Positions 2,066 to 56,787 of a DNA stretch of 56,787 nt are shown here, piece after piece. Within the stretch, counting starts at the first letter, position 1. Each line of letters begins with the position of its first letter. The DNA lies in the NCBI RefSeq assembly GCF_944324995.1, contig NZ_CALUYL010000024.1, forward strand, positions 1 to 56,787. The letters are read 5' to 3'. The position numbers and the translations under genes are program-made. The notes under the pieces were generated by a model that saw only the letters and a list, made by a program, of their open reading frames with translations, searched no databases and had not been told where the DNA came from. The stretch is from an uncultured Mailhella sp. Lineage in GTDB: Bacteria; Desulfobacterota; Desulfovibrionia; Desulfovibrionales; Desulfovibrionaceae.

Positions 2066-2890
2066 AGGCAGAAAAGGCAGGAAAGGCAGGAAAGGCATGC
2101 GGGGGAAATAATTCCCCCCGCGCCCCCCTGTTTCTGCCTCCCGGCTTCGCCGGTTCGGCAGGACAGGGTGAACGGGAAGATTATGCCCGAAGCAAAGGGC
2201 GAGGGGGAGAGTGAAGACCGGAAGGCGTTTTTCAACGCTCTGGGGCCCCGGGCGACGTCTGGAGCCTGGCCGACGGCAGGCGCGTAGCCGGAATTCACTT
2301 CCGGCGTTAAGCGCAGCTGCCGTCGTACAAGTTCCGCAGTCCGTGTAGTGTGTCTTGCGTCAACGGGATGTTGTGGCAGAACTATTCCTGCGAGGTCAGA
2401 AATAATTCCCCTCGCGCCCCCCTGTTTCTGCCTCCCGGCTTCGCCGGTTCGGCAGGCGGGAGCGTGCAGGCAAAGCGCGTTGCCTATGGCTGCGGTCGAG
2501 CAAAAAGGTTATGTCCGCAGCGGGCGGAGTGCTTGGCGGGCGCTGTTCGATCTGCGGTCTCAGTGCAGGTGTGTCCTTTCGGACCCACCTGCGGTGGCCG
2601 ACTCCTGTCCGACAAAGGTCGGACAGTCGTGTCAAAGGAAAAGATTTCCAGATTTTTGTTGGAGAAGGAATCGGCCCAGCGTGGTGGAGCCGATTTCGGT
2701 TCAGCCGCCGGGGCGGGGAAATTTCCACCCGGAAAGTCGTTTCTCAATGCTCTGGGGCCCCGGGCGACATCAGGAGCCCGGCCGACGGCAGGCGCGCAGC
2801 CGGAATTCACTTCCGGCGTTAAGCGCAGCCGCCGTCGTACAAGTTCCGCAGGCCGAACAGTGTGTCTTGCGCAAACGGGAGACGGCAGCC
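2066..2890 (+). repeat. Composite structured repeat, copy 1 (full copy plus a second tail)
   Basis: It starts on the stop codon with purine-rich AAAGGCAG-type units. A strong hairpin (GCGGGGGAA / TTCCCCCCGC) and a CCGGCTTCGCCGG hairpin follow. Next are the CCGGGC / GCCCGG stem, the GCCGGAA / TTCCGGC stem (2287-2293 with 2299-2305) inside an outer GACGGCAG / CTGCCGTC pair, and last the GTGTCC / GGACCCAC and TGTCCGAC / GTCGGACA hairpins ending near GATTTCCAGAT. A second set of middle modules follows at about 2729-2890. There is no coding signal. Confidence 0.85.
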
Positions 2891-3550
2891 GCCGGGCGCT
2901 CGTCAGATACAGAGAGAGGAAGCGTTCCGAGAGTGGGGCGTCTTCCTCTCTTTTTTTCGATTCAGCGTTTCATGCCGGGGTGTCGCCTGCCGGACAAAGA
3001 TCGGCGCAGAATGTTGCTGCCGCCCCATGATGTTGCACGGCGTTGCCTTTTAAACATCTTGTCATCTTTTCCTTTGCTCACGACTGTCCGGCACAGGCCG
3101 GACAGGAGTCGGCCACCGCAGGTGGGCGCAGCAGCGCACACCTGCACTGAGACCGCAGCCCGAACAGAGCCTGCCAGAACTTCCCGCCTGCGTGGAGCTC
3201 ACCTGTCGAAACTCCGAACGCCATTTTCAGCAACCCGACCGGCATTCGCCCCGACCTGCTGAAGCAGCTTTAGCTGCGAAGAAGAATCAGGGGGGATCGG
3301 GGGGAATTATTTCCCCCGGCGGGGTTCGGGGCGGAGCCCCGCTGCTCTCGTCTGATCCCTTCCATTCAATCCGGGGCGGAGCCCCGATGCTCCGGCCTGT
3401 CCCCTTCCTCTTCTGTCTTTCCCTTCCTTTCTGTCTTTATTTATTGTTATTTTTCAGTGAAGATTGGGCATGATTCTTGACAGTGGGGGGAGGGGGGTGG
3501 ATAGTGGAAAAGCTCAGGTTTGGAGTTTTTAAGGCAGGGACGTTGCGGAT
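2891..3550. repeat. Composite repeat copy 2, inverted, followed by the upstream region of the GGDEF/EAL gene
   Basis: From about 3068 to 3330 a copy of the composite repeat lies on the minus strand, starting with its TCACGACTGTCCGGC end and finishing with a CAGCTTTAGCTG hairpin and a GGGGGGAATTATTTCCCCC stem. Two GGGGCGGAGCCCC hairpins follow at about 3330 and 3372, then pyrimidine-rich sequence to 3440 that corresponds to the purine-rich head read on the other strand. Bases 2891-3067 hold nothing I can name. Confidence 0.75.
3477..3505 (+). promoter_or_regulatory. Candidate sigma-70 promoter with a G-tract spacer
   Basis: TTGACA at 3477-3482 and GATAGT at 3500-3505 are separated by 17 bases that are almost pure G (two runs of six). 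It lies 46 bases before the ATG of the GGDEF/EAL gene. The -35 box is perfect and the -10 box is a weaker match. Confidence 0.5.
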
Positions 3551-6500
3551 ATGACGATAGGCAGCGGATTTCATTTATCAGATCTTCAATACTGGCGCGA
3601 GTTGAAGATACTGGCGGAGCGCGCCTCGCGGGATGTATTGTCCGGGCTTTTGAATCGTGAGACGGCGACGGACTACATTGAGCAGTGTTTGCGGCACATG
3701 CAGCCTGGGGACATGTGTGCGTTGTTCATTGTTGATCTGGACAACTTCAAGCAGGTGAACGACACGCTGGGGCATCAGGCGGGGGATCAGGTCATTCGTC
3801 TGGCGGCGAAGGCGCTGTCGGGGTGTTTTCGGGCGACGGACATTGTGGGGCGTCTTGGCGGGGACGAGTTTTTTGCGCTGATTTCTGGTCCGATTACGGA
3901 GGAGAGTGCGCGGGAGAAGGCGCGGAGCATATGTGAGGCGCTGCAGTTTTCGATAGGCGTGAATCCGACGCTGCATGTGAGTTCGAGCGTTGGGGTGTAC
4001 ATAGCGTCCGGGGAGACGCGGGCGTTTGAGAAGCTGTACGAGCGCGCGGATGCGGCGTTGTACGAGGCCAAGGCGGAGGGGCGCAACAGGTATCACATCA
4101 GCAGCGGGGAGGAGTCGGAAGAAGGCGAGCACGAGACGGAAGTGCTGCCGTATGCGCCTGTTCAGCTTCAGGCGTTGCTTGAGCACATGGAAGAAGGCGT
4201 GGCGCTGCTGGAAGTGCAGGAGGACATCAGCGTGGTGTATGCGAGTCCTGCGCTGCTGCGCATGCTGGGCGCGGAGCCGGGAAGCGTGGCGCTGCCGTGT
4301 GATCTTTCGTCGTTTTCCGGGATTCATCCCGACGACGTGCCCGAATACGAGCGGCTTTTGCGCGAGAGCATGGCGAGCGGCCGCGGGGTGGAATATGAAC
4401 ATCGTTTTCTGCGCGACGGGGTATGGCGCTGGTGTCGGGCGCGGGTGACGCGCATGCCGGCGTCCGGCGGCAGGGTGTCGATGCTGGCGCTGGTGCGGGA
4501 TGTTTCAGGTGCGCGCAAGCGCGAGGACGCGCTTCAGGAAGAGAGCGAGCTTTTGAAGCTGGCGCTTGATCGCGGTTCGCGCGTGCTCTGGGAATTGGAC
4601 GTGTCGTCGCGTCGATTTGTGCTGTTCAACAGTCGGCGTCGGGTGAACGCGTCATCCATGCGGGTGGAGAATTTTCCGGAGGGGCTGATTGAACGCAAGT
4701 GGGTGCATCCGGATTCCGTTTCCCGATTCCGGGCGTTTGCGCGGGATCTGCTCGGCGGCCGTCCTGCGGGCGGGGGAGCGTTCATTCTTCGTCACAAGAT
4801 GAGTCGTCGATACGGGTGGTTTTCGGTGTACTACCGGGTGCTGCCCGACGGGGATCGGCGACCGCTCAAGGTGATAGGCATTGCGGAACCGCTTTTCGGG
4901 GGGCTGTTTTCTGGCGGGGGGATATCCGGACGGGACAGGCTGTGGGAGGCGTTGCGTCCGAACCTGTTCTGCTATTTGCGGCTTGATCTGACGCGCGACC
5001 GTGTGGAGGCGCTGTGGTCGGAGGGGCGGACGTTTACGCCGCATTTGTGCGGGGTAAGCTGCATGGAGCTCTTGAAGAGGGAGAAGAAGCGTCTGTTCCG
5101 CCGCGAGGACAGGGATGAATTTCTGTCGGTGTTCGGCAGGGATGCGCTGCTTGCGGCGTTTGCGCGCGGCGCGGAGTGGGTGACGCGGGAATATCGTCGC
5201 GTGGACGAGGGCGGCATGGTTCGCTGGCTGTCGTACACGGCGCATCTGGCGCAGAATCCGCTCACGGGGAACGTGCAGGCGTTCTGCTTTCTGCAGGACA
5301 CGGAACGTCGGCACGAGCGCGAGGCGCAGCTGGTGCGCAGTTCGCGCGATTTGCCGGTGCACGGCATCTACGGTCGGGACATGGCCCGCAGGCTGGCGGA
5401 AAACGTGCTGGAGAGCGGGGACTCTCCGCTGCATCTGCTGGCGTTTGTGCGGGTGCTTGGTCTGTCCGGGCCGGAAGCGGCGCGCCGTCGTCGATTTATT
5501 TTCATGGCGTTTTCGCTGCTGCTCGGTTCCGAGTGCGTGATAGGCGAGCACGGCGAGGACGCGTTTACGGTGTTTCGTTCCGACGCCGCGCCGCGGGTGG
5601 TGACGCGGCAGCGCATGGACGAAGCGTTTGCCTTTGTGCGTCAGGCGCTGTTTGACTGCGGCATGGCCATGATTCCGCGTTTTGTGGCGGCGGTGGCCTG
5701 CGCCGATCTTTGCGGAACGGACTACGAGGCGCTGGTGCGGCGAGCCGGGCAGATGTGCGGCGAATGGGAAAACGAGCCTTCGGACGTGATTGTGTTCATT
5801 GACGATCTGTCGCCGTTCCAGCCCGAGCGGTCGGACGGGCTGCCGCTGGGCGCGGAATCCGCGGTTTCGGCGTCGGTCGTGCCGGATGCGGCGTCCGGCG
5901 GGGAGGTTCCGACTCCCGCTCCGGCAGCGGCGTCTGCGCCGGATGCGGCGTCGGCATCCGCGGGCGCGGCGACAGGCACGGCGGCCCCCGGAACGTCCGG
6001 CGCGACGCTCCCCGCGGGGGCGGGAACGTCGACTCCTGCGCCCCACGCTGTTCCCGGAACTTTTGCCGCCGTGTCCCACGGCGCCCTCGGATCACCGGCT
6101 CTCGCGTCTCCTTCGGCTTTCGGAACCTCGACCCCCGCGGCTTCTGCCGCCCACGGAACCTCGGTTCCCGGAGCCTCCGGAACTTCGCCTCTCGGCGCGT
6201 CGTTCCCCGGAGCGTCGGCATCCGCTCCGGCCGTGGGCAACGCGGCCCTCGGCGCTCCGGTTCCCGGCATGGCGGCCCTGGTTTCCGCTGCGGCTGCGTC
6301 GGCGGCTGCCTCGGCCGACCACGCCGATCATGCCGATCATGCGGTTTCCGCCCTTGAGAGCAACGTCGCCGCCCGCCCGGCGCAGTCCGTGTTGCCGAAG
6401 GAGGGCGCGCGCCACGCCGAACCGGCGCGCCGCCTCTCCGACAATGGCAAGGATACGGCCATTGCCTGTCTGGAAGCCCTGCTGCTCGACGAGTCCCCGG

Positions 6501-8171: not shown

Positions 8172-10703
8172 ATGCGCGTGGAATGCGGGCGGAGGGACGT
8201 TCCGCTGCTCACCGTGGGCATAGGGGCTTCGGCCGGAGGTCTGGAGGCGCTTCAGCAGTTTTTCGCGAGCATGCCCGACAACAGCGGTCTGGCGTTCGTG
8301 GTGATTCAGCATCTTTCGCCGGATTACAAAAGTCTCATGGCGGAAATTCTGGGCAAGTACACCGGCATGACCGTGATTCAGGCCGAAAACGGCATGCCCG
8401 TGGAACCCAATATCGTGTTTCTCATTCCGCCCAAGAAGAACATGACCCTCAAGGACGGCAAACTTCTGCTCTCTGACTATCCGCCCGTGGGAATCAATCA
8501 TCCCATCGACATCTTTTTCACGTCGCTGGCCGAGGAGAAGAAGGAATATTCCATGGCGGTGGTGTTTTCCGGCACGGGTTCCGACGGCACGAACGGCGTC
8601 AAGGCGGTGAAGGAGCACGGCGGCCTCGTGCTTGTGCAGGATCCCGCCACCGCGCGCTTCGACGGCATGCCCCGCAGCGCCATCAACACCGGACTCGCCG
8701 ATTTTGTGCTTTCCCCGCACGACATCGCGCGGGAGATACTCAATTTTTCGCATTATCCGGCGCTCGGCGAGGGCGAGGCCGAGGAATCCTTTCTTTCCAG
8801 CGACGAGGATACCCTTACCCGCATTTATCTGCTGCTGCGCAAGGTGAGCGGCATCGATTTCACGCACTACAAGCGCAACACCGTGCTGCGGCGCATCGAA
8901 CGGCGCATGGTAGTCACGCACTGCCCCACGCCCACGGCCTTCGCCAAAATGCTTGAGGAAAACAAAGAGGAGGCAAGCCTGCTCGTCAAGGACATCCTCA
9001 TCGGGGTGACCCGCTTTTTCCGCGACGCCGAGTTCTTTGAAAAGCTCAAGTATACCGCCATGTACAGCATTCTTGAGCACTGCGACGAAAAGGAACCCGT
9101 GCGCGTGTGGAGCGCCGGATGCTCCACCGGCGAAGAAGCCTATTCCCTGGCCATACTCTTCCACGAGGCCATGGAAGAAAAGCATCTGCACCGCGATGTG
9201 AAAATCTTCGCCACCGACGTCGATACCCACGCCATCGAACAGGCGGGCAAGGGCATGTTTCCCGAAAGCATTGCCGACGACGTTTCCCCCGAACGCCTGG
9301 CCCGTTACTTCGTCAAGCACAACGATCAGTATCAGGTGACCAAGGAAATCAGAAAGATGATCGTGTTTGCGCCGCACAACATGCTTTCCGATCCGCCATT
9401 CGGCCGCCTCTCGCTCATCAGCTGCCGCAACGTGCTCATTTATTTTCAGCCCGTGCTGCAGAAGGGACTCTTTGCCATTTTCCACACGGCGCTCAAGAAC
9501 GGCGGCTATCTCTTCCTCGGCAGAAGCGAGACCGCCAGCGAATACAACAAGGTGTTCACCCCGCTGTGCATCACCGAAAAGATTTACGTGCACCACAACG
9601 AGGGCAAGGTGGACGATTTCATAACGCCGTCCTTCAGCATTCCCAAGATTCAGCCCAGCCTGCCCGGCGCTTCCGGCATGGCCCGCAGGGAAGAGAGCAG
9701 CTTCGCCCTCGAAAGCGTCTATACCCGTTTTCTGGAAAAGTTCCTGCCCGCCGCCGTCGTGCTCGACGATCAGAACAACATCATTCATTTTTTCGGCAAC
9801 TACGCCGATTACTTGAATATCGCCCCGGGCAAGGCCACCTTCAACTTCTTCTCGCTGGTCAATAAGGACATCAATCTTGTGTCCTCCACGGCCATCAGCC
9901 GCTGCCGCGTGGAACGTTGTCCCGTCACCTATACGGGCATATCCGTGGACACCGCTTCCGGCCGGAAGATCATCGATTTGTCGGTGCAGCCCATCTTCGA
10001 CGACGCCGGCGTTCACACCGGCCTGCTGGCCATCCTGTTCCTGGAACAGCGCGACCTGCCCCTCGGCGGCGTGACGGAAAAATACGACATCGACACCACC
10101 GCCGCGCAGCGCATCGTTGATCTCGAACACGAACTCCAGGTTTCGCAGAACGACCTGCGCTCCACCATCGGCGAACTTGAAACCGTCAATGAGGAACTCC
10201 AGGCCGCCAACGAGGAACTGCAAAGCTCCAACGAGGAACTGCAAAGCTCCAACGAGGAACTGCAATCGGTCAACGAGGAGCTCTATACCGTGAATTCCGA
10301 GTTTCAGCAGAAGCTCGACGAACTCACCACCATGACCAACGATTTGTCGAACTTCCTGTCGTCCACCATGACGGGCATCCTGTTCGTGGACAGCAATCTC
10401 CATATCCGCAAGTTCACGGAGTACATCGGCAGGGAATTCCAGCTCGTCAGCCAGGACGTGGACCGCCCCCTCCAGATATTCGCCCACAGCTTCCCCGACG
10501 AAGATATCGTCGCCGACGCCAGGGCCGTCCTGAAAAACCTCGCGCCCATCGACAGAGAAGTCACCGGCATGAACGGCCGCTTCTATACCATGCGCATAGC
10601 CCCCTACCGTACCACCGAAAACAGTATCCAGGGCCTCGTCATCACCGTCATCGACAGCCTCGGCGAGGGCTGGAAAAAAGTCGATCCCCCCGCCGAAGAG
10701 TAG
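8172..10703 (+). CDS. CheB-CheR fusion with coiled coil and PAS domain (hybrid chemotaxis-type signalling protein)
   Basis: The protein has 843 residues. An N-terminal CheB-type methylesterase domain (about 10-190) carries the catalytic triad Ser20 (GIGASAGG), His47 (VIQHLSPD) and Asp138 (GTGSDGT). There is no receiver domain before it. A CheR methyltransferase follows (about 210-470), with the SAM-binding segment VWSAGCSTGEEAYSLA and the SCRNVLIYF motif. Then come a PAS-like region, a heptad-repeat coiled coil with repeated NEELQSS units (about 673-713), and a C-terminal PAS domain (about 715-830). Such fusions usually feed a downstream histidine kinase or an alternative chemosensory-like pathway; none is in the window. 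It lies just after the c-di-GMP protein, suggesting a shared signalling unit. A composite repeat follows immediately after the stop. Confidence 0.9.
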   Translation: MRVECGRRDVPLLTVGIGASAGGLEALQQFFASMPDNSGLAFVVIQHLSPDYKSLMAEILGKYTGMTVIQAENGMPVEPNIVFLIPPKKNMTLKDGKLLLSDYPPVGINHPIDIFFTSLAEEKKEYSMAVVFSGTGSDGTNGVKAVKEHGGLVLVQDPATARFDGMPRSAINTGLADFVLSPHDIAREILNFSHYPALGEGEAEESFLSSDEDTLTRIYLLLRKVSGIDFTHYKRNTVLRRIERRMVVTHCPTPTAFAKMLEENKEEASLLVKDILIGVTRFFRDAEFFEKLKYTAMYSILEHCDEKEPVRVWSAGCSTGEEAYSLAILFHEAMEEKHLHRDVKIFATDVDTHAIEQAGKGMFPESIADDVSPERLARYFVKHNDQYQVTKEIRKMIVFAPHNMLSDPPFGRLSLISCRNVLIYFQPVLQKGLFAIFHTALKNGGYLFLGRSETASEYNKVFTPLCITEKIYVHHNEGKVDDFITPSFSIPKIQPSLPGASGMARREESSFALESVYTRFLEKFLPAAVVLDDQNNIIHFFGNYADYLNIAPGKATFNFFSLVNKDINLVSSTAISRCRVERCPVTYTGISVDTASGRKIIDLSVQPIFDDAGVHTGLLAILFLEQRDLPLGGVTEKYDIDTTAAQRIVDLEHELQVSQNDLRSTIGELETVNEELQAANEELQSSNEELQSSNEELQSVNEELYTVNSEFQQKLDELTTMTNDLSNFLSSTMTGILFVDSNLHIRKFTEYIGREFQLVSQDVDRPLQIFAHSFPDEDIVADARAVLKNLAPIDREVTGMNGRFYTMRIAPYRTTENSIQGLVITVIDSLGEGWKKVDPPAEE

Positions 10704-10956
10704 AAAAGGCAGGAAGAGAGGAAAGGCAGAAAAGACAGAAAAGGCAGAAAAGGCAGAAAAGGCATGCGGGGGAAATAATTCCCCCCGCGCCCCCCTGATT
10801 CTGCCGTGCGGCTGCGCCGCCCGGCAGGACAGGGTGAACGGGATGATTATGCGAGGAGCAAGGGGCGAGGGGGGGAGTGAATAGGAGAGGAGAAAAGCAA
10901 AGGAAAAGATTGACGGGAGGGGAGAAACAGCCTTGCATTGTGTCACGCTTCACTCT
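10704..10956 (+). repeat. Composite structured repeat, copy 3 (head only)
   Basis: It starts right after the TAG stop with six or so AAAGGCAG-type units, then the GCGGGGGAA / TTCCCCCCGC hairpin and the GCGGCTGCGCCGC version of the next hairpin. It breaks off near 10885 after the GAGGGGGGGAGTG segment. Bases 10886-10956 are unassigned and lead directly into a damaged first CRISPR repeat, so the leader expected here is missing. Confidence 0.8.
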
Positions 10957-11367: not shown

Positions 11368-11371
11368 TCGG

Positions 11372-12211: not shown

Positions 12212-12212
12212 T

Positions 12213-12831: not shown

Positions 12832-12837
12832 ATCGGC

Positions 12838-15060: not shown

Positions 15061-16119
15061 ATGTACGACAAGGTCAGAGCGCGACGCGCCTTTTTCCTTG
15101 TGCTGCTGGTTTTTTTTGCGAGTGACGCGGCGGCGAAGTTTACCCGTCCAACTTTTGACCCCTTACGGGAGCCGGTTGCCATGACAGAGAGCGGATTTCG
15201 TATTGTGGCGCGCGGCGATGCCGCCGTGCCGCCTCTCACGCCCAGGGAAGCGGATGTGATTCTCCGCAAGGCCACGGAAGCGCCGTGGTCCGGTGAATAT
15301 GAAAAGAACACGGCGGCGGGAACGTATTTGTGCCGTCAGTGCGGCGTGGCGCTGTATCGTTCGTCGGACAAGTTTGATTCCGGCTGCGGCTGGCCCGCCT
15401 TTGACGATGCGCTGCCCGACATCGTGCGTCGTCTGCCCGATGCCGACGGTCGCCGCGTGGAGATCGTGTGCAATCATTGCGGGGCGCATCTGGGGCACGT
15501 GTTTGAAGGCGAACGTCTGACGGAAAAGAATACGCGTTACTGCGTGAATTCGGTGTCGATGAGCTTTGCGCCTGCGGGCAGCGAGAAGGAGAAGCTGGGG
15601 CTTGCGCTGTACACGCAGGTTCGCGGAACCAGTGTGGCGGTGCTTGCGGGCGGCTGCTTCTGGGGTGTGGAAGACGCCATGAGCAAGCTGCCGGGCGTGG
15701 TGGACGTGCGTTCCGGCTACACGGGCGGGCATACCGACCGGCCGTCCTATGAGGATGTCTGCCGCGGCGATACCGGCCACGCCGAAGCCGTGCTCGTGCG
15801 CTTCGATCCCGCCAAAATCAGCTATGAAGCCATCGTGCGCCGCTTCTTTGAAATTCACGATCCCACCCAGCTCAACCGCCAGGGCCCGGACGTGGGCAGT
15901 CAGTACCGCTCCGCCGTGTTCTGGCTGGATGAAAACCAGAAGCAGACCGCACAGAAACTCATCGATGAACTGCGCCGCCTCGGCTACGACGTCGTTACCA
16001 AACTCGAACCCGCCGGCCCCTTCTACGAGGCCGAAGCCTGGCACCAGGACTTCACCAAACGCACAGGCCGCGGCGGCTGCCACCTCCCCGTCCCCCGCTT
16101 CGACCGCCCCGCAAAGTAA
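15061..16119 (+). CDS. msrAB: Exported methionine sulfoxide reductase, MsrB-MsrA fusion
   Basis: The protein has 352 residues and reduces both stereoisomers of methionine sulfoxide, here in the periplasm, because a signal peptide spans about residues 1-25 (RARR, hydrophobic core, ASDAAA). MsrB comes first (about 45-175), with zinc-binding CRQC and CNHC pairs and the catalytic Cys161 in RYCVNS. MsrA follows (about 190-345), with Cys199 in GGCFWG and the HDPTQLNRQGPD segment. The order B then A is the reverse of PilB-type fusions, which also carry a thioredoxin domain absent here, so an external electron donor is needed. The start at 15061 is set by AAGGAGGGTGCC; an upstream in-frame ATG at 14971 has no such site. 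A composite repeat begins at the stop. Confidence 0.93.
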   Translation: MYDKVRARRAFFLVLLVFFASDAAAKFTRPTFDPLREPVAMTESGFRIVARGDAAVPPLTPREADVILRKATEAPWSGEYEKNTAAGTYLCRQCGVALYRSSDKFDSGCGWPAFDDALPDIVRRLPDADGRRVEIVCNHCGAHLGHVFEGERLTEKNTRYCVNSVSMSFAPAGSEKEKLGLALYTQVRGTSVAVLAGGCFWGVEDAMSKLPGVVDVRSGYTGGHTDRPSYEDVCRGDTGHAEAVLVRFDPAKISYEAIVRRFFEIHDPTQLNRQGPDVGSQYRSAVFWLDENQKQTAQKLIDELRRLGYDVVTKLEPAGPFYEAEAWHQDFTKRTGRGGCHLPVPRFDRPAK

Positions 16120-16750
16120 AGCCAGGAAGAGAGGAAAGGCAGAAAAGACAGGAAAGGCATGCGGGGGAAATAATTCCCCCCGCGCCCCCCTGATTCTGCC
16201 TCCCGGCTTCGCCGGTTCGGCAGGACAGGGTGAACGGAAAGATTATGCCCGAAGCTATGGGCGAAGGGGGAGTGTCTGCCGGAAGGCCGTCTCTCAACGC
16301 ACTGGGGCCCGCGGGCGACATCAGGAGCCCGCGCCGACGGCAGGCAAGTAGCCGGAATTTACTTCCGGCGTTAAACGCAGCCGCCGTCGTGCAAGCTTCG
16401 CATCCTGTACGGTGTGTCTTGCGCAAACGGGATGTTGTGGCAGAGCTAGTCCTGAAAGGTCAGAAATAATTCCCCGACAAAGTCGGGACAAGCCCCCCGC
16501 GCCCCCCTGATTCTGCCTCCCGGCTGCGCCGCCCGGCAGGACAGGGTGAACGGAAAGATTATGCCCGGAGCTATGGGCGAAGGGTGGACGTTTGGAAAGT
16601 CAGTAGGCACGACGCGCGGAAAGTTCTGGCAGACACTGTTCGGGCTGCGGGCTCAGTGCAGGTGTGTCCTTACGGACCCACCTGCGGTGGCCGACTCCTG
16701 TCCGACAAATGTCGGACAGTCGTGAGTAAGGAAGGATTTCCAGATATTTT
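16120..16750 (+). repeat. Composite structured repeat, copy 4
   Basis: It starts at the msrAB stop. It has the head hairpin, a CGCGGGC / GCCCGCG version of the middle stem (about 16309-16331), the GCCGGAA / TTCCGGC-type hairpin, then a second head whose loop carries the insert CCCGACAAAGTCGGG (16473-16487), and finally the tail hairpins GTGTCC / GGACCCAC and TGTCCGAC / GTCGGACA. Confidence 0.82.
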
Positions 16751-17001
16751 TAAGGGAACACCGAGCTCAAGGGCGCAAATGCAATCCGAAAGGTGGTTGT
16801 TCAGCGCTCCGAGGCCCCGGGCGATGTCAGTAGTCCGGGCATGGCAGCTCTCCCGACAGCATCAGGCAAGGGAACCCCGAAAGCAACGAAGGCGCAGCCT
16901 CAAGAGAAAAGTTTGAGATCGCGCCTTTTGTTTTGCGGGCAGAAAAGCCCCTTGACGGAGTTTCCTTTGCATCCTTCGCTCAACGCCGCGGACGGGCGGC
17001 A
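16751..17001. other. Gene-free stretch after composite repeat copy 4
   Basis: A degraded piece of the repeat middle (GGTGGTTGTTCAGCGCTC through GTAGTCCGGG) lies at about 16785-16850. The rest to 17001 shows no gene; it is the 3' flank of the minus-strand nuclease-like gene. No clear terminator for that gene is seen. Confidence 0.4.
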
Positions 17002-18439: not shown

Positions 18440-18910
18440 CCGTCCTGCCATTCTTTCGCTCTCCAAACATCTGGAAATCCCATCCTTTGACACGACTGTC
18501 CGGCGAAGGCCGGACAGGAGTCGGCCACCGCAGGTGGGCGCAGCAGCGCACACCTGCACTGAGACCTTGTAATTCTCCCGAAGAGCAACACCGTCCCGTT
18601 TGCGCAAGACACGCTGTACGGTCTGCATCACTTGCACGACGGGCATTGCGTTTTACGCCGGAAGTGAATTCCGGCTACTTATGCCCGTCGGCCGGGCTCC
18701 TGACGTCGCCCGGGGCCCCACAGCGTTGAGAAACGTCCTTCCGGTTTCCACTCCCCCCTTCGCCCTCTGCTTCGGGCATAATCTTCCCGTTCACCCTGTC
18801 CTGCCGAACCGGCGAAGCCGGGAGGCAGAATCAGGGGGGGGCGGGGGGAATTATTTCCCCCGCATGCCTTTCCTGTCTTTCTTGTCTTTTCTGCCTTTTC
18901 TCTCTTTCTG
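18440..18910 (-). repeat. Composite structured repeat, copy 5 (minus strand)
   Basis: Read on the minus strand it begins after the pyc terminator with AAAGGCAG-type units, then the head hairpin, the CCGGCTTCGCCGG hairpin, the middle stems, and the GTGCGC / GCGCCCAC and TGTCCGGC / GCCGGACA tail hairpins, ending near 18470. Bases 18281-18439 show no feature. Confidence 0.82.
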
Positions 18911-18920
18911 CCTTTAACTA

Positions 18921-30100: not shown

Positions 30101-30147
30101 TTGCGGGGGGAGGGGTTTTGCGGCAGTAGAGGGGGAGGGGGTGCGAG

Positions 30148-34334: not shown

Positions 34335-36123
34335 ATATCAGCCGCCGAAAAGCGGGCTTCTGCTTCTCCAGTGCTGCATAGTGCTGCTGTTTGCGCTGTT
34401 CTGCGCGCGCTTCTGGTATTTGCAGATACACCGCGGCGCGGACTACGTGCGCATGGCGCAGGAAAACCGCCTGCGCGACGAACGTATTTTTGCGCCGCGT
34501 GGTGAAATTTATGATGCGTCGGGCGAGCTGGTGGCGGAAAACCGCACGGCCTACGGACTCGCGCTGGTGCGGGAATACTGTCCGGACATCTCGGCGGCGC
34601 TTGCGCAGGTGAGCGCCTGGACCGGCGTGCCGCTCGATCGTCTTCACGCGCGCTATGAGCAGGATCGCAGCAAGGGCCGCAGTTTTGACCCCATCCTGCT
34701 GCTCACCGACATGCCTTTCGAGCAGGTGGCGCCCATCGAGGCCGAACTCTACAAGTGGCCCGGTCTGCGCGTGGTGACGCATTCCCGGCGCTACTATCCG
34801 GAAGGGGAGGCGTTTTCGCACATTCTGGGCTACGTGGCCGAAGCCAGTGAAAAGGAACTGGCGGAAGATCCCGACCTCTCGCTCGGCGACATGGTGGGGC
34901 GTCAGGGCCTGGAAAGCGTGCTGGAACGGCGTCTGCGCGGACAAAAAGGTCTGTACCGGCTGGAAGTGGACGTGCTCGGCAGACCGCTGAGCCGCACGCT
35001 CATCGAGTCGCCGCACATGGGGCAGAACGTGACGCTGTCCATCGACTCGCGGCTTCAGCACGCGGTCATGGAGGCGATGGGAGACTATTCGGGCAGCGTG
35101 GTGGTCATGGATCCCGATTCCGGCAAGCTGCTCGCGCTGGTGACGCGTCCTGCCTACGACAACAATATTTTCATCGGCGGGCTTTCGGCGCGCGACTGGA
35201 ACGCTCTGCGCAGCGATCCGCGTTTTCCGCTCCAGAACCGTGCCATCCAGAGCGCCTATCCTGCGGGATCGGTGTGGAAGCTCATGATGGTGGGCATGCT
35301 GCTTGAGCACGGCGTGTCTCCGCAGGAAAAGGTATTCTGTCCCGGACAGTTCACGCTCGGCAATCATACGTTCCGCTGCTGGCGGCGCGGCGGGCACGGA
35401 GCCGTGGACATGGAGCATTCGCTCATCTATTCCTGCGACGTGTATTTTTACAGCATGGCGGTGAAGCTGGGCATCAACAACATGGAAGCCTTTGCCCGCG
35501 CCTGCGGCTACGGTCGCGAAACCGGCATAGATCTGCCCTACGAGACCACGGGCCTTGTGCCTTCGCGCGACTGGAAGAAGCGCCGCTTCGGCGAAGCCTG
35601 GCAGCAGGGCGACACGGTGAACGCCTCCATCGGACAGGGCCATGTGCTCGTGACCCCGCTCCAGACCGCCGTGTTTCTCTCGTCCATCATCAACGGCGGC
35701 TATCTTCTCAAGCCGCAGCTCATTGCCGACGCTCCCCGAGAGGTCACGGGCAAGACGCCCATTTCCGACGCCCACCGCGAATGGATCAAAAAAGCCATGG
35801 TGCAGACCGTGGAAGCCCCGGGTGCAACAGCCAAGGTGCTGAAAAGAAAGGATATGACCATAGGCGGCAAAACAGGTACCGCGCAGGTGGTCAAGATCAA
35901 GATGCAGGGCGACCGCCGCGTGAAGACCGCCGAAATGGAGTTCCGCCAGCGCGACCACGCCTGGATAGGCTCCTGGGGCGAAAAGGACGGCAAACGCGTC
36001 GTCGTCGTCACCATGATCGAACACGGCGGCGGCGGTGGCGCCGTGGCCGGCCCCGTCACCAAGGCCGTTTATAACATCCTCTTCCCCCCGGAACCCGACG
36101 CCAAACCCGCTAAACGCAAATAG
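34309..36123 (+). CDS. mrdA: Penicillin-binding protein 2 (elongasome transpeptidase)
   Basis: The protein has 604 residues. One membrane helix (about 20-40) is followed by the PBP dimerisation domain (FAPRGEIYDASGELVAENRT) and the transpeptidase domain. Active-site motifs: SVWK with Ser321, SCD with Ser375 (PBP2-type variant of SxN), and KTG at 521-523 (GGKTGTAQ). It cross-links side-wall peptidoglycan in complex with MreBCD. It starts inside the end of mreD. RodA, often next, is not here: a composite repeat begins at the stop codon. Confidence 0.95.
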   Translation: MKIETGNDEYQPPKSGLLLLQCCIVLLFALFCARFWYLQIHRGADYVRMAQENRLRDERIFAPRGEIYDASGELVAENRTAYGLALVREYCPDISAALAQVSAWTGVPLDRLHARYEQDRSKGRSFDPILLLTDMPFEQVAPIEAELYKWPGLRVVTHSRRYYPEGEAFSHILGYVAEASEKELAEDPDLSLGDMVGRQGLESVLERRLRGQKGLYRLEVDVLGRPLSRTLIESPHMGQNVTLSIDSRLQHAVMEAMGDYSGSVVVMDPDSGKLLALVTRPAYDNNIFIGGLSARDWNALRSDPRFPLQNRAIQSAYPAGSVWKLMMVGMLLEHGVSPQEKVFCPGQFTLGNHTFRCWRRGGHGAVDMEHSLIYSCDVYFYSMAVKLGINNMEAFARACGYGRETGIDLPYETTGLVPSRDWKKRRFGEAWQQGDTVNASIGQGHVLVTPLQTAVFLSSIINGGYLLKPQLIADAPREVTGKTPISDAHREWIKKAMVQTVEAPGATAKVLKRKDMTIGGKTGTAQVVKIKMQGDRRVKTAEMEFRQRDHAWIGSWGEKDGKRVVVVTMIEHGGGGGAVAGPVTKAVYNILFPPEPDAKPAKRK

Positions 36124-36720
36124 CAGGAAAGGCAGAAAAGGCAGGAAAGGCATGCGGGGGAAATAATTCCCCCCGCGCCCCCCTGATTCTGCCTCCCGGC
36201 TTCGCCGGTTCGGCAGGACAGGGTGAACGGGAAGATTATGCCCGAAGCCAAGGGCGAGGGGGAGAGTGGAGGCCGGAAGGCCGCTTTTCAACGCTCTGGG
36301 GCCCCGGGCGACGTCAGGAGCCCGGCCGACGGCCGCAAGTAGCCGGAATTCATTTCCGGCGTTAAACGCAGCCGCCGTCGTGCAAGTGGTGCAGTCCGCA
36401 CAGCGTGTCTTGCGCAAACGGGCCTGCGTGTTCGTCGGAGCTTTGCAAAGTTAGAAATAATTCCCCCCGCGCCCCCCCTGATTCTGCCGAAGGCTGCGCC
36501 GTTCGGCGGGCGCTGGCGGGAAGGCAAAACGTGTTGCCGAAGATGCGCGGGCGTTCGGAAAGGCCGCGGTTGCGAGCGGTAGTGTGCTTGGCGTGCGCGC
36601 TTCGGTCTGCGGACTCAGTGCAGGTGTGTCCTGTCGGACCCACCTGCGGTGGCCGACTCCTGTCCGGTCTTCGCCGGACAGTCGTGTCAAAGGAAAGGAT
36701 TTCCAGATTTTTGAGGGATA
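36122..36720 (+). repeat. Composite structured repeat, copy 9
   Basis: It begins on the TAG of mrdA. It is a complete copy: purine head, head hairpin, CCGGCTTCGCCGG hairpin, CCGGGC / GCCCGG, GCCGGAA / TTCCGGC, second head, GTGTCC / GGACCCAC, and TGTCCGGT / GCCGGACA, ending near TTTCCAGATTTTTG. Confidence 0.85.
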
Positions 36721-36902
36721 GCTGCCGAACGCTGTGCAGGAAAAGTCCTCTCTTCTGAGTGGAGGGGAAGCCGGAATCTGTCGCGCCCGCTGACGGGGAA
36801 AGCCGTTGCGGTGATGTTCCTGGTACTCTGCCGGACGACCGTGAGTAAAGAATGAAGTTCCGAAAGTCTTGTGTCGTTGTCCGGCCGAAAAAGAGTAAAA
36901 TA

Positions 36903-39149: not shown

Positions 39150-39740
39150 GCCCCCGGAAAGGCGGGAAAGGCAGAAAAGGCATGCGGGGGAAATAATTCC
39201 CCCCGCGCCCCCCTGATTCTGCTTCGCAGCTAAAGCTGCTTCAGCAGGACAGGGTGAACGGGAAGATTATGTCCGAGGCAAAGGGCGAGGGGGAGAGTGG
39301 AGGCCGGAAGGCCGTCTTTCAACGCGCTGGGGCCCCGGGCGACGTCAGGAGCTCGGCCGACGGCAGCAAGCAGCCGGAATTCACTTCCGGCGTTAAGCGC
39401 AGCCGCCGTCGTGCAAGCGATGCAGCTCGTACAGCGTGTCTTGCGCAAACGGGATTGTGTGCTTTTTGCGGTCTGCAAGGTCAGAGATAATCTCCCCCGG
39501 TCCCCCCTGATTCCGCCGAAGGCTGCGCCCTCGGCGGGCGCTGGTGGGAAGGCAGGGCGAGTTGCCGAAGATGGCGGGATTTTGAAAAGGCAGGGACTGC
39601 GAGGTTTTGGCGTGCTTGGCTGACGCTGCTCGGGCTGCGGACGCAGTGCAGGTGTGTCCTCACGGCCCCACCTGCGGTGGCCGACTCCTGTCCGGCCTTC
39701 GCCGGACAGTCGTGTCAAAGGAAAGGATTTCCAGATGAGG
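39150..39740 (+). repeat. Composite structured repeat, copy 10
   Basis: A full copy not attached to a stop codon. Its hairpin is the CGCAGCTAAAGCTGC version with outer arms CTGCT / AGCAG, a paired change from CTGCC / GGCAG in other copies. The tail has GTGTCC ... GGCCCCAC and TGTCCGGC / GCCGGACA. Confidence 0.82.
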
Positions 39741-40005
39741 GGGGGAGAACATCGAGGGGCGAGAAAGTAAACCGGAAAGTTTTTTTGTCGTTCTGGCCCC
39801 CCGGGCGTTGAGAGACGGCCTTCCGGCAGTCACTCCCCCCTTTGTCCTTCGCACTGCGCATAATTTTTCCGTTCCCCCTGTCCTGCCGAACCGGCGAAGC
39901 CGGGAGGCAGAAACAGGGGGGTGCGGGGGGCTTGTCCCGACTTTGTCGGGGAATTATTTCCCCCCGCATGCCTTTTCTGCCTTTTCTGTCTTTCCATTTT
40001 GTTGC
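39741..40005 (-). repeat. Composite structured repeat, copy 11 (minus strand, head only)
   Basis: It faces copy 10 tail to tail. Read on the minus strand from 40003: purine head, head hairpin with the inserted CCCGACAAAGTCGGG (39950-39936), CCGGCTTCGCCGG hairpin, ending in the middle module near 39795. Confidence 0.8.
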
Positions 40006-45563: not shown

Positions 45564-45572
45564 GACGAAAGA

Positions 45573-45739: not shown

Positions 45740-45898
45740 CGCCTTCCCCCTTTCGCCTTCGTTCCGGGCATAATCATCCCGTTCACCCTGTCCTGCCGAA
45801 CCGGCGAAGCCGGGAGGCAGAAACAGGGGGGTGCGGGGGGGATTATCTCCCCCGCATGCCTTTCCTGTCTTTCCTCTCTTTCTGCCTTTCCTGCCTTT
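45740..45898 (-). repeat. Composite structured repeat, copy 12 (minus strand, head only)
   Basis: Read on the minus strand it starts on the TAA stop of the radical SAM gene (45897) with AAAGGCAG units, then the head hairpin and the CCGGCTTCGCCGG hairpin, and ends near 45745. Bases 45607-45739 have no recognised feature. Confidence 0.82.
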
Positions 45899-47012
45899 AC
45901 GGGCAGGAGATGATGCCTTCGGACCAGAGGCAGGCGCCGCAGGTAGGGGTATTATTGCCGTAGCAGTCGGGAAGGGAGTTTTCCCAGTTGTCGCACTGGG
46001 AGCAGCGGCAGCAGGGGGAGAACTCGAAGTTGCGCACTTTGTTTCGGAAGGCGGCGTAGTCCGGGGAGTTCCAGATCATGTCGAGGGGGGTGTCGCGGAC
46101 ATTGCCGAAGAAGTGGTGCTGATTGACGCGGGTTTTGCCGCCCCAGTAGAGGCGGGAGGTGCGCAGCAGCGACATGCAGGGGGCGACGAAGCCGTCGTGC
46201 CGCACAAAGGCTATGCCGTCGTCGATGAAGCGGCAGCGGCGGGCTGGGCGGTGCAGGCGCTGGCCCGACAGGAATATTTCGCACATGCCGGCGCTGAGCA
46301 GTCCGGCGGCGGCCTGGGCTGCGCCGGGCTGAGTCCAGTCCATGAGGGGCAGGTGGATGCGCGGCGCGGAAGGCGGCACGTTGTCGCCGCCGAGGTCGCT
46401 GCCGATCACGTTGCGGTAGAGCAGTTCGGATTCGGTGTGCTCGTCGGTGGGAATGGCGTGGGAAATGTTCACTTCGTTCACGCGGTAGTAGCTGGCGAAG
46501 TAGGGCAGATCGGCGAGTTCCTGCACGTTGCTCTTCATGACCACGAAGGCCAGCCCGAGCTTTACTTCGCGGTTCAGGGCGAAGCGCAGCTGATTGAACG
46601 TCATGATGTGCTGCTTGAGCGTGGCGAGATGTCCGTTGCGTCGAATGCTTTCGTAGCGTTCTTCCTTGAAGCCGTCCACGGAAAGCCAGAGCATGTCGAG
46701 TCCGGCGTCGAGCAGGGCGGCGGCGTGCGCTTCGTCGAGCAGCGAGCCGTTGCTCAGAAGTTCGGTTCGGCGGCCCGATGCCGACGCCGCGCGCACCATC
46801 TCCACAATGCGCGGATGCGCCAGCGGCTCGCCCATGCCGCCGAAAAATATGGTTTCCACGCTCGCAGGCAGATGCTCCATCACCGCGCGGAACGTCTTCT
46901 CGTCCATGTCCCCCGTGCTCTCGCCTATCCAGCTGTTGCGAAAGCACATCGCGCAGCGCAAGTTGCACCGCGACGTGGGCTCAATATACAGCCGCTTCAA
47001 TTCGTCGCCCAT
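45897..47012 (-). CDS. Radical SAM protein with Cys-rich SPASM-like C-terminus
   Basis: The protein has 371 residues. The radical-SAM cluster is Cys16-x3-Cys20-x2-Cys23 (SRCNLRCAMC), with the GGMGEPL motif after it. The C-terminal region contains CRFIDD, APCMSLL, a CCRCSQC group and CGACLWSEGIISCP, so one or two auxiliary [4Fe-4S] clusters are likely, as in SPASM peptide-modifying enzymes and in the maturases of tungsten aldehyde oxidoreductases. The closing GACLW ... CP resembles the latter in my recollection, but no aldehyde oxidoreductase or precursor peptide gene is nearby. The substrate is unknown. It is a single gene with a composite repeat on its stop codon. Confidence 0.82.
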   Translation of the reverse strand: MGDELKRLYIEPTSRCNLRCAMCFRNSWIGESTGDMDEKTFRAVMEHLPASVETIFFGGMGEPLAHPRIVEMVRAASASGRRTELLSNGSLLDEAHAAALLDAGLDMLWLSVDGFKEERYESIRRNGHLATLKQHIMTFNQLRFALNREVKLGLAFVVMKSNVQELADLPYFASYYRVNEVNISHAIPTDEHTESELLYRNVIGSDLGGDNVPPSAPRIHLPLMDWTQPGAAQAAAGLLSAGMCEIFLSGQRLHRPARRCRFIDDGIAFVRHDGFVAPCMSLLRTSRLYWGGKTRVNQHHFFGNVRDTPLDMIWNSPDYAAFRNKVRNFEFSPCCRCSQCDNWENSLPDCYGNNTPTCGACLWSEGIISCP

Positions 47013-47129
47013 ATGTTCCCCCGCCGGGAAGCCCCGGAAAAAGTTAAACTAAAACTCAAACTATACCTTTTTTCGCCACCGTGTCCAGCTCGCGCCGAAA
47101 AACACGCCGTTTCATTATTCGAGAGAGAA

Positions 47130-47625
47130 AGTGGAAGGGGGACAGGCCGGAGCAGCGGGGCGCTGCCCCGAGCCCCGCCGGGGGAGATAATCTCCCCCGG
47201 GCCCCCATGTTTCCGCCGAAGGCTGCGCCATCGGCGGGCGCTGGCGGGAAGGCAGGGCGAGTTGCCGAATCCGAGCGGGAGATTGGCAAGGCGGGAACTG
47301 CGGATGTCGGAGTGCTTGGCGGGCGCTGTTCGGTCTGCTGCCTCAGTGCAGGTGTGCGCTGCTGCGCCCACCTGCGGTGGCCGACTCCTGTCCGGCCTTC
47401 GCCGGACAGTCGTGTCAAAGGAAGGGATTTCCAGATTTTTGGGGAGGGAATACCGAAGTCGGGGGCGCAAATGCAGACCGGAAAACGTTCTCTTAACGCG
47501 CTGAGGCCCCGGGCGACGTCAGGAGCCCGGCCGACGGGCATAAGTAGGCGGGATTCACTCCCGCCGTTAAACGCAATGCCCGTCGTGCAAGTCTTGTGTC
47601 CGAACAGCGTGCCTCGCGCAAACGG
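47130..47625 (+). repeat. Composite structured repeat, copy 13
   Basis: The head differs: a GCGGGGCGCTGCCCCG hairpin and CCGGGGGAGATAATCTCCCCCGG in place of the usual head stem, with both arms changed. The inner stem is GGCGGGA / TCCCGCC (47547-47553 with 47559-47565) and the outer GACGGGCAT / ATGCCCGTC. The tail hairpins are GTGCGC / GCGCCCAC and TGTCCGGC / GCCGGACA. Confidence 0.82.
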
Positions 47626-47780
47626 GATGCGGAGTGCGCAGGGCGCTTGAGTGTCTGCCCCGCACCTGTGGTGCCGATTCCCGTCCCCCCCCCCGCGCCT
47701 GTCAGGCACAAAAAAGGGCGGCGTGGTGGAAGAAAACGTTGCTCGTACGCCCTGAGAACAGGAAAAGCAGTTGTAATAAT

Positions 47781-49590: not shown

Positions 49591-50012
49591 AAAAGCTCAT
49601 GGCTCTTGCTCTCTCCCTTGTGGTGCTGCTCTCCGCCGGCTGCGCCGTGCCCGCCGCCGAAGGCCTGTTCGAGTCCGGCGGCTCCTCGCAGCTGCGCCTG
49701 CGCCAGATCCAGACCCGTTACTTCGATACCTCCGATAAACAGAGAACCGTCGAAGCCGTCATCGCCACCCTCCAGGACCTCGGATTCGTCATCGATAAGG
49801 CGTCCCTCGACCTCGGCAGCGTCACCGGTACCAAACTTAAAGGATATACCGTCCGCATGACCGTCAACGTCATGCCCCGCGGCAAGGCGCAAATGACCGT
49901 CCGCGCCAGCGCCCAGTATAACGTTACCCCCATCGAAGACCCCATCATCTACCAGGACTTCTTCAACGCCCTCTCAAAAAGCCTCTTCCTCCAGGCCCAC
50001 CTCGAAAACTGA
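49587..50012 (+). CDS. Lipoprotein, short paralogue of the previous gene
   Basis: The protein has 141 residues. The signal peptide ends in LSAGC (Cys19). It shares QIQTRYFDTSDK, LQDLGF and ALSKSLFLQAH with the upstream protein but lacks its middle section, as if it were a minimal version of the same fold (two beta segments around one helix). Gene duplication is inferred. A composite repeat starts at its stop codon. Function unknown; an envelope role is likely because both are lipoproteins. Confidence 0.78.
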   Translation: MKKLMALALSLVVLLSAGCAVPAAEGLFESGGSSQLRLRQIQTRYFDTSDKQRTVEAVIATLQDLGFVIDKASLDLGSVTGTKLKGYTVRMTVNVMPRGKAQMTVRASAQYNVTPIEDPIIYQDFFNALSKSLFLQAHLEN

Positions 50013-50605
50013 AAAGGAAGAGAGGAAAGGCAGAAAAGGCAGGAAAGGCATGCGGGGGAAATAATTCCCCCCGCGCCCCCCTGATTCTGCCTCCCGGCTT
50101 CGCCGGATCGGCAGGACAGGGTGAACGGGAAGATTATGCCCGAAGCCAAGGGCGAGGGGGAGAGTGCATACCGGAAGGCCGTCTTTCAACGCTCTGGGGC
50201 CCCGGGCGACGTCAGGAGCCCGGCCGACGGGCATAAGCAGGCGGGATTCACTCCCGCCGTTAAACGTAATGCCCGTCGTACAAGTCCCGCAGGCCGTACA
50301 GTGTGTCTTGCGTAAACGGGAGTAAGCGCTCTTCGGAGGTCTGCAAGGTCAGAAATAATTCCCCCCGCGCCCCCCTGATTCTGCCTCCCGGCTTCGCCGG
50401 TTAGGCAGGACGGGAGAGTGCAGGCAAAGCGCGTCGCCGAAGCGACGTCCGGCAGGAGCAGGTTGCAAGACTTGGAGGGCTTGGCGGGCGCGGTTCGGGC
50501 TGCGGTTTCAGTGCAGGTGTGTCCTTTCGGACCCACCTGCGGTGGCCGACACGGATTCCGGTCTCGCCGGAATCCGTGTGAGTAAGGAAGGATTTCCAGA
50601 TGATT
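50011..50605 (+). repeat. Composite structured repeat, copy 14
   Basis: It begins on the TGA of the lipoprotein gene. The inner stem is GGCGGGA / TCCCGCC (50240-50246 with 50252-50258). Its last hairpin is CACGGATTCCGG / CCGGAATCCGTG (50550-50561 with 50567-50578), a completely different sequence from TGTCCGGC / GCCGGACA at the same place in other copies. Confidence 0.85.
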
Positions 50606-51295: not shown

Positions 51296-51832
51296 ACGCC
51301 GGGTGCGGACAAAATCCTATCCCCCCTGCCTGCATTCCCCATATCATTGCGGCAGTGCCCTCCGGTTAGCATTCGCTTCCCTGATTTTTCTTCCATATCT
51401 GGAAAGCTCTTCCGGTTGACACAGCTGTCCGGCCCGAGTTACCGATGCCGCCCGTGTTCCCCGGAGCGTTGAGAGAACATGTTCCGGTCTGCATTCGCCC
51501 CTCCCCCTCGATGTTCCCTCCCAAAACATCTGGAAATCCTTTCCTTTGACACGACTGTCCGACTTTTGTCGGACAGGAGTCGGCCGCCGCAGGTGGGCGC
51601 GGAAGCGCACACCTGCACTGAGACCGCAGCCCGAACAGCGCCTGCCGGGCCTTTCCGCGCCTCGCAGCCTCCGCCTTTCCAAACTCCCGCCATCTTCGGC
51701 AACGCGCATAGCTTTCCCGCCTGTCCTGCCGAACCGGCGAAGCCGGGAGGCAGAAACAAGGGGGCGCGGGGGAAATTATTTCCCCCGCATGCCTTTCCTG
51801 TCTTTCCTGCCTTTTCTGCCTTTCAACCCGTT
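51296..51832 (-). repeat. Composite structured repeat, copy 15 (minus strand)
   Basis: The recognised part is 51420-51832. Read on the minus strand: purine head, head hairpin, CCGGCTTCGCCGG, a deletion of the middle, then GTGCGC / GCGCCCAC with the loop changed, and TGTCCGAC / GTCGGACA. A further tail fragment near 51420-51480 is decayed. Bases 51296-51419 show nothing. Confidence 0.75.
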
Positions 51833-51868
51833 CTATCCGTAAATAAGAGGATATTAAGGAAGGGGGGG

Positions 51869-56442: not shown

Positions 56443-56468
56443 CCCCCCACCCGAAAAACGTATGAACC

Positions 56469-56503
56469 AACGCCCGACCGCACCCGCAGCCGGGCGTTTT
56501 TTT
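56469..56503 (+). terminator. Intrinsic terminator of the carboxylase operon
   Basis: ACGCCCG pairs with CGGGCGT around a GC-rich loop, followed by seven T, about 27 bases past the stop. Confidence 0.82.
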
Positions 56504-56787
56504 AGGGAAAGAAAGGGAAGGCAGAAAAGGCAGGAAAGGCAGAAAAGGCATGCGGGGGAAATAATTCCCCCCGCGCCCCCCTGTTTCTGCCTCCCGGCTT
56601 CGCCGGTTCGGCAGGACAGGGTGAACGGGAAAATTATGCGAGGAGCAGAGGGCGAAGGGGGGAGTGCAGCCGGAAGGCTGTCTTTCAGAGCTCTGGGGCC
56701 CGCGACCTGTCTTCAGGCGGTCGCGCCGACGGCAGGCAAGTAGCCGGAATTCACTTCCGGCGTTAAACGCAGCCGCCGTCGTGCAAG
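56504..56787 (+). repeat. Composite structured repeat, copy 16 (runs off the right edge)
   Basis: Purine head from about 56513, head hairpin, CCGGCTTCGCCGG, then the GCGACC / GGTCGC version of the middle stem (about 56702-56727) and GCCGGAA / TTCCGGC. The window ends inside the outer stem. Confidence 0.85.

Follow-up and report, generated by a model that had tools for sequence, protein, structure and literature searches.

Mosaic palindromic repeats within one chromosome segment of Mailhella: stable sites and scrambled contents in two strains

The contig analyzed here (NZ_CALUYL010000024.1 of assembly GCF_944324995.1, 56,787 nucleotides, referred to as the window), from an uncultured Mailhella sp. 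(Desulfovibrionaceae), a gut sulfate-reducer relative, carries a large family of composite intergenic hairpin repeats, to which an earlier note made from the letters alone had drawn attention. In two strains of the species, the positions of these repeats are stable and their contents scrambled, similarity between copies does not decay with distance, and the heads with which the elements begin lie within a single 580-kb segment of the chromosome; in the strain assembled as one contig, units inside one element share alleles. With moderate confidence, we interpret the family as non-coding mosaic DNA repeats composed of palindromic modules, of the kind represented by neisserial intergenic mosaic elements (NIMEs), bacterial interspersed mosaic elements (BIMEs) and BOX elements, the contents of which are reshuffled among fixed sites by non-allelic recombination. 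Three genomes are referred to by labels: G000 is that of the window (2.92 Mb on 44 contigs, the window being contig C24), G059 is the one-contig genome of the same species, and G008 belongs to a second species.

The family consists of three modules, A1, A2 and B, which are recognized across copies in an order that is most complete as A1-A2-A1'-B-A2 and from which units are dropped or repeated, in agreement with the ordered set of hairpins that had been proposed. The spacing from A1 to A1' defines a tandem unit of about 294 bp. The A1 head consists of 9-bp iterations (GGCAGGAAA/GGCAGAAAA)n, after which come the palindrome GCGGGGGAAATAATTCCCCCCGC and another hairpin, p. A2 is made of three stems, namely c, d (which encloses the e hairpin, GCCGGAATTCATTTCCGGC) and GCAAG/CTTGC; a GTTAAAC box in this module suggested an integron attC site, a reading that was dropped. 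In B, the palindrome and p recur, accompanied by a GCAGGTGTG/CACCTGC stem, whose tip varies, and by the f stem CTGTCCGG..CCGGACAG. The number of units behind the head varies, A1-(A2/A1'/B)n, so that a variable middle module of the BOX type is present. Self-comparison of the window showed dispersed direct repeats (at least 60% identity) and inverted repeats (up to 312 nt, 81-94%) at the places noted, and DNA searches of its own genome gave at least 64-88 matches per query; these copy numbers are lower bounds, as the best 40 of 81-88 candidate areas were scored and, in the cross-genome search, the best 9 candidates per genome. The earlier note had counted about 16 composite copies on both strands. 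The family and its presence on both strands are confirmed, and the count is now 14 heads (11 exact matches, single heads with one and with two mismatches, and a long form at 39971-) in 13 clusters, of which the longest spans 2068-3318.

The elements are indeed longer than repetitive extragenic palindromic (REP) or enterobacterial repetitive intergenic consensus sequences, and the statement that no named family matches has held: there was no Rfam match at gathering level in the window, no match to the repeat in phages or plasmids, no match in viral contigs to one exact repeat pattern, and no Pfam family at E 0.001 in the eight open reading frames (157-304 aa) that overlap elements. Homology to a coding gene or an insertion sequence, named in the note as grounds for refutation, was accordingly rejected on the basis of these reading frames, and an origin from phages or plasmids on the basis of the searches that gave no match. 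In a literature survey in which subscription papers lay largely outside the scope, neither this repeat family nor a hairpin family limited to a segment of similar size was found, beyond REP clusters of 200 kb.

The confinement is best seen in G059. A 29-base head pattern with up to three mismatches identified 44 heads, all at 199,833-780,348 of 3,168,613 bases, that is, in 580 kb of 3.17 Mb or 18% of the chromosome, an outcome with a probability of about 10^-30 under uniform placement. Their density is uneven, with 22 heads in 324-430 kb and none at 237.7-324.1 kb. Away from known heads, 18 sampled stretches contained no module match; ten further stretches included eight without a module (140-160, 170-190, 250-270, 285-305, 470-480, 745-760, 790-810 and 820-840 kb), the remaining two carrying two A2 copies (450-470 kb) and one partial copy (540-555 kb). 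The repeat network of this genome comprises 86 segments, 85 of them within the repeat segment; the lone outside member, at 2,253,400, is none of the modules A1, A2 and B but a terminator-like hairpin. It belongs to a second terminator-like intergenic repeat, GGAGGAAA..TTTTTCAAAA..TTTCCTCC, that is part of the same network and was located at 36948-37033 of the window and at 197838-197949 and 2253400-2253490 of G059. In G000, 44 heads were also found, on 13 of the 44 contigs. Dispersed repeats covered 7.0% of bases at least three times in 23 stretches (480 kb) of these repeat contigs and no base in seventeen 20-kb stretches of other contigs, where one short A1 match was seen. A 4.2-kb piece of a G000 contig without heads (C2:80525-84714) corresponds at 98.9% identity to 486.7-482.5 kb of G059, inside the segment, and may reflect a translocation across the segment border.

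Comparison of the two strains revealed stable sites. The window is collinear with 425-381 kb of G059 in blocks that are 90-98% identical (plus a 188-base block at 80% and a 159-base block at 89%). For 36 of 41 G000 heads, a lower bound since G059 was partly fetched, a head with the same flank exists in G059, and these flanks are on average 97.3% identical. The bodies behind the heads behave differently: their identity is 0.775 at orthologous sites versus 0.716 for other pairs, the ortholog ranks best in only 6 of 36 cases, and none of 37 orthologous pairs has the same module and allele string, although these strings rest on a motif list that misses variants. First-allele matches at orthologous sites were close to the permutation means, with 9/16 versus 6.6 for d, 11/18 versus 11.0 for e, 8/14 versus 6.9 for B, 11/19 versus 11.2 for f, and 16/18 versus 16.0 for c. 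Units within G059 elements shared alleles in 27 of 35 pairs for p, 32 of 38 for d and 33 of 37 for e, and no decay of similarity with distance was detected inside G059 (Mantel r -0.004, P 0.425). The alignment of the window to G059 splits into 12 blocks, and 38.9% of its repeat bases are collinear at 92% identity or more versus 63.2% of its other bases, the latter value being depressed by two gene islands missing in G059 and by the 92% limit. The only two overlaps above 5 kb outside the segment (14.8 and 6.75 kb) align as one block each, at 96.9 and 97.5% identity.

Such scrambling might largely be an artifact of the fragmented G000 assembly, several of whose 44 contigs end inside repeats and whose copies are similar enough to mislead an assembler. 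We regard this as highly improbable: the window contig traverses repeats with the gene order of the one-contig G059, and allele sharing within elements, allele diversity and confinement are all visible in G059 alone. The elements of the window, in window coordinates, are as follows.

2066..3439, head on the plus strand at ~2068: element filling the intergenic gap, A1-A2-A1'-B-A2, followed by remnants of inverted B and head (3052-3318) and by a tract of pyrimidine 9-mers up to 3439
10702..10881, plus: A1 head-only copy after a CheB/CheR-PAS gene; the enclosing 6.2-kb segment is missing in G059
16107..16847, plus: A1-A2-A1'/B-A2, directly after the stop of an MsrAB-like gene (16119)
18455..18915, minus: A1-A2-B
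25431..26210, plus: A1-A2-A1'-B-A2; at this site G059 has A1-B-A2-A2, and G008 a repeat
29074..29595, plus: A1-A2-A1' and partial A2, the plus-strand half of a two-headed gap
29804..30108, minus: A1-B, the opposing half of the gap begun by the 29074..29595 element
36119..36740, plus: reference copy A1-A2-A1'-B, beginning at the stop codon of a PBP gene (36121-36123)
36125..36240, plus: module A1 of the reference copy, with the 9-mer array (GGCAGGAAA/GGCAGAAAA)n, the GCGGGGGAAATAATTCCCCCCGC palindrome and the p-stem hairpin
36271..36425, plus: module A2 of the reference copy, with stem c, stem d enclosing e (GCCGGAATTCATTTCCGGC) and the GCAAG/CTTGC stem
36450..36720, plus: module B of the reference copy, with the palindrome, the p hairpin, the GCAGGTGTG..CACCTGC stem (variable tip) and the CTGTCCGG..CCGGACAG stem
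39152..39995, no single strand: two-headed gap, A1-A2-B (plus) and opposing A1 (minus), adjoining a type I restriction-modification-like island
45743..45899, minus: A1 head on the far side of this island, in the direction of the 39995 head
47128..47686, plus: A1'-B-A2; G059 has three A1-A2 units at the same site
50011..50605, plus: A1-A2-A1'-B with a third f allele (GGATTCCGG/CCGGAATCC)
51444..51837, minus: A1-B
56505..56787, plus: A1-A2, cut by the contig end; the site is also occupied in G059 and G008

The restriction-modification-like island at 39996-45743 encodes HsdM- and HsdS-like proteins that score below curated cut-offs. It is flanked by two A1 heads of the same orientation and is missing in G059, a pattern that recombination between heads, with loss or gain of the island, would produce. 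At 10960-14450 there are CRISPR-like arrays with 17 copies of a repeat like GTTCTAACAGACCTGATCTTCAAAGGGATTATGAC, spaced 73-79 nt within groups; the five groups are divided by four leader-like units of about 460 bp (starting at ~11329, 12173, 12794 and 13574) with a terminator-like hairpin. This block is likewise missing in the same-species G059.

The second species supports the confinement. Of twenty G008 stretches, the eight picked at known hits carry repeats and the twelve controls carry none; this is support and not a census, because earlier hits guided which stretches were read and the best 9 of 45 candidates were scored. Through orthologous proteins, the repeat stretches map to 191-203, 231-243, 330-355, 374-448, 486-492 and 660-677 kb of G059, with one stray protein match each at 270 and 729 kb, and one repeat-free control is orthologous to 103-111 kb, just beyond the segment. 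Sites common to G000 and G008 follow the window genes ending at 56442, 36123 and 25434 and lie beside the gene near 30150-31680, whereas the gap 18207-18972 and the site after 2065 are not common. Coverage by repeats, measured as bases covered at least three times, was 8.1% in domain versus 0% in control stretches of G008 and 7.4% versus 0.72% in G059. In other genera, stretches around bipA showed no comparable high-copy repeat (0.24% versus 0% in G025, 0.87% versus 0.35% in G043). With the best 9 candidates scored per genome, the family was matched at the DNA level in 12 of 17 other members of the genus, several by short pieces alone, in none of the other 5, and in none of 41 genomes outside the genus. 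One congener without a match, G017, carries dispersed hairpin repeats of its own.

A repeat limited to one large segment recalls matS in the Ter domain of E. coli, with 23 sites in 800 kb (PMC3330122). By analogy with MatP/matS in the terminus domain, the palindromes could be segment-specific landmarks binding a protein that organizes or segregates the segment. All heads lying in 18% of the chromosome, the correspondence of the G008 repeat stretches with the G059 segment, the partial conservation of sites between species and the maintenance of stem arms as DNA palindromes fit this idea. We nevertheless consider it rather unlikely. GC skew suggests a terminus of G059 at 15-100 kb and an origin near 1.8-1.95 Mb, which would put the repeat segment on a single replichore, starting 100-185 kb from the skew switch; the density of heads is uneven; a landmark should need no 600-bp, ever-changing bodies; and at the DNA level, with the best 9 candidates scored per genome, the family is found in one genus and not in 5 of its 17 other members. 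Unlike the 13-bp matS, moreover, these repeats are long and variable.

The two arms of the stems do change together, as the earlier note had listed for several arm pairs, which are present in the copies. In the fetched G000 and G059 stretches, the arms of the inner f stem were exactly complementary in 54 of 54 cases (38 CTGTCCGG and 16 CTGTCCGA; the pattern omits the third f allele), the B tip in 51 of 53 (26 TCC/GGA, 25 CGC/GCG), and the p stem had matched arms (CTGC/GCAG or CCGC/GCGG) in 119 of 122, three being mixed. Alignments of distinct module rows from these stretches contained 95 rows for A1, 134 for A2 and 75 for B, after exclusion of copies covering less than 75% of the model, mostly gapped columns and identical rows. 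Among the A2 rows, the six-pair e stem was complete in 111, lacked one pair in 17 and more than one in 4, and had gaps in 2; the nine-pair d stem was complete in 47, had 8 pairs in 50 and 3-7 in 29, and had gaps in 8. Against a null of 200 simulations that kept the tree and the parsimony changes per column, the share of paired cells for A1, A2 and B was 0.924, 0.904 and 0.890, exceeding null maxima of 0.887, 0.800 and 0.749 in every simulation, with the reservation that the stems were derived from the alignments under test, which favors those stems. Cells with double changes numbered 97, 375 and 311 versus null maxima of 42, 178 and 193; pairs with double changes (12, 17 and 30) stayed within null maxima of 12, 20 and 36. 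The check for significant covariation that the note had proposed gave a signal beyond the null for the paired-cell share in the three modules and a much weaker one in a general G-test with the tree null, which was nearly negative: five pairs had E<0.05, all in B, three of them consensus pairs, and none was found in A1 or A2.

The further step taken in the note, from covariation to a selected fold, is not upheld. Alleles are discrete hairpin blocks that occur in many combinations and switch as whole hairpins. Among pairs common to the folds of both strands, stem mismatches were G·T in 130 and A·C in 126 cases, a count based on 80 of 149 sense-strand pairs with non-Watson-Crick-majority pairs omitted, which favors symmetric pairs. 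Since G·T is not favored over A·C, no strand-specific RNA selection is seen, and this symmetry together with the block-like alleles argues for DNA palindromes. Template switching can alter both arms in a single event (PMC8794818), so that selection does not follow from covariation, which here favors DNA palindromes kept by exchange and possibly by template switching, and is no proof of RNA-fold selection. Structured 3' untranslated RNA elements (terminators, mRNA stabilizers or stable RNAs) selected for their fold would account for the strong palindromes near stop codons, where certain heads start at the stop codon itself or a few bases from it, and for the covariation. By a codon-pattern heuristic, 56 of 83 heads are in sense after the stop of the upstream gene, 21 are antisense beside a divergent gene and 6 are undecided, and for B the sense strand gives the more stable fold (mean -126.7 versus -113.0 kcal/mol). 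Given the absence of a G·T preference and of an Rfam family, the similar energies of A1 and A2 on both strands, and the fact that a role in expression predicts no confinement to one segment, we judge this explanation to be quite improbable.

A doubtful though genuine possibility is that the repeats are non-autonomous mobile elements, similar to REPs/BIMEs or miniature inverted-repeat transposable elements (MITEs), copied by a transposase preferentially to nearby sites and piling up around its gene. There are published REPs that cluster no farther than about 200 kb from the gene of a REP-associated tyrosine transposase (RAYT; PMC2817692), about a third of the 580-kb segment. IS200-type TnpA matches occur, with three of their loci in the G059 segment (263.9, 274.2 and 322.1 kb), the last of which has a head about 1.7 kb away. 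No head was seen in the two TnpA neighborhoods inspected, and three TnpA proteins that were scanned all exceeded the IS200 cut-off and none the RAYT cut-off. The search for a RAYT that the earlier note had called for was negative: model NF047646 gave nothing over its cut-off in G000, G059, G008 and G015, another member of the genus (best 35.8 of 80 bits), while 6 of 14 control genomes matched, E. coli included, one over the cut-off. A RAYT mobilizer was therefore rejected from searches with PF01797 and NF047646. Genes and fragments of the Y1 transposase (PF01797) are plentiful in some members of the genus (32 matches in G008, 25 in G007). The tetramer GTAG, known from REPs, stands before the e hairpin in 47 of the 134 A2 rows, yet GCAG does so in 81 and other tetramers in 6; with respect to the GTAG/CGTC tags of REPs (PMC3733652), which stand at the foot of palindromes of 20-40 bp, a partial tag alone is shared, and CGTC here sits in the d stem. 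As regards the terminal inverted repeats of MITEs, inverted heads stand at both ends of several gaps, but many elements have one head. Little insertion is seen because the sites are mostly common to both strains.

NIMEs, BIMEs and BOX elements were compared by description and not by sequence, and none is claimed to be the same family; what they have in common with the Mailhella repeats is mosaic structure, folds or palindromes, and variation from strain to strain. The NIMEs or dRS3-RS arrays of Neisseria similarly lie between genes as mosaics in which short inverted repeats combine with variable units; they measure 200-2700 bp, contain 20-bp dRS3 repeats ATTCCC(N8)GGGAAT that flank RS units, and have been tied to localized recombination and changes in gene content (PMC3898611). 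In contrast, the Mailhella hairpins are longer and nested, and the heads are fixed mostly beside stop codons and in one segment. REPs/BIMEs share palindromes with complementary changes, composite arrays and some regional accumulation (PMC2817692), but differ from the present case, with no RAYT above the cut-off, a tandem unit of ~294 bp, a non-conserved GTAG, a region three times larger and mostly shared sites. BOX elements of Streptococcus pneumoniae are similarly modular (boxA-boxB(n)-boxC), with strong predicted folds and a middle module of variable copy number; about half of their insertions are common to all strains, and they occur in few species (PMC3049150). They are described as chromosome-wide, unlike the confined Mailhella repeats, and the available part of that account describes no allele shuffling between fixed sites (PMC3049150).

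Under the recombination reading that we favor, the head, with its 9-bp iterations and GC-rich palindrome, would mark a fixed position, usually just past the stop codon of a gene, followed by as many as four units, each built of discrete hairpin alleles. Non-allelic homologous recombination (gene conversion), probably triggered at the hairpins by DNA breaks or by stalling of replication, would swap contents between sites, and extra units may arise by tandem amplification. Two processes would keep the arms complementary: the exchange of entire hairpins, and template switching, by which one arm can be copied onto its partner. Most tentatively, confinement might reflect an ancestral spread followed by ongoing exchange only among copies in one chromosome neighborhood; an ancestral local spread is preferred, with the RAYT-associated REP clusters as the precedent (PMC2817692).

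Several points weigh against this reading. Exchange is deduced from two genomes of the species with no event directly seen, and one of these, on 44 contigs, may contain misassembled repeats. First p alleles match at orthologous sites slightly above chance (13/33 versus 8.4, P 0.040), and allele sharing within G000 elements is weak (p 5/11, d 5/10, e 5/8). Gene conversion alone fails to explain the absence of heads outside the segment, a lack of distance decay is equally expected under transposition, and the G·T/A·C count is tilted toward symmetry, as stated. Confinement may also not be a rule of the genus, because in G017 a query with a hairpin loosely like e (GCCGCAATTGACTTGCGGC) matched 10 of 11 fetched stretches; coverage in this genome, whose stretches were placeable only in part, is reversed (1.07% in domain versus 2.83% in control stretches), and its cross-matches to G008 are limited to 20-30 bases.

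Bacterial interspersed repeats are usually described as genome-wide. The presence of dozens of copies in one fifth of a chromosome, backed by a second species, implies a boundary to their spreading or recombination. The family looks like a previously undescribed form of the known bacterial mosaic repeats, and its regional confinement is the unexplained and most interesting part. A stronger version, which we consider unlikely, assumes one conserved segment with fixed heads as markers, mostly at the ends of genes; the hairpin bodies behind them would be exchanged actively, specifically and solely among the sites of that segment, giving every site a combination that keeps changing. If true, such a segment-specific system would represent non-coding recombination that is programmed or bounded by a domain, and it would naturally record which loci touch in the nucleoid. 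The case also advises caution, as covariation of paired arms in exchanging DNA palindromes does not by itself prove a selected RNA. With fixed positions and shuffling contents, an exchange of alleles between two sites could serve as a record of their physical contact. Domain-limited recombination would thereby become testable from genome sequences alone, and the family looks like a good system for studying how a bacterial chromosome recombines with itself.

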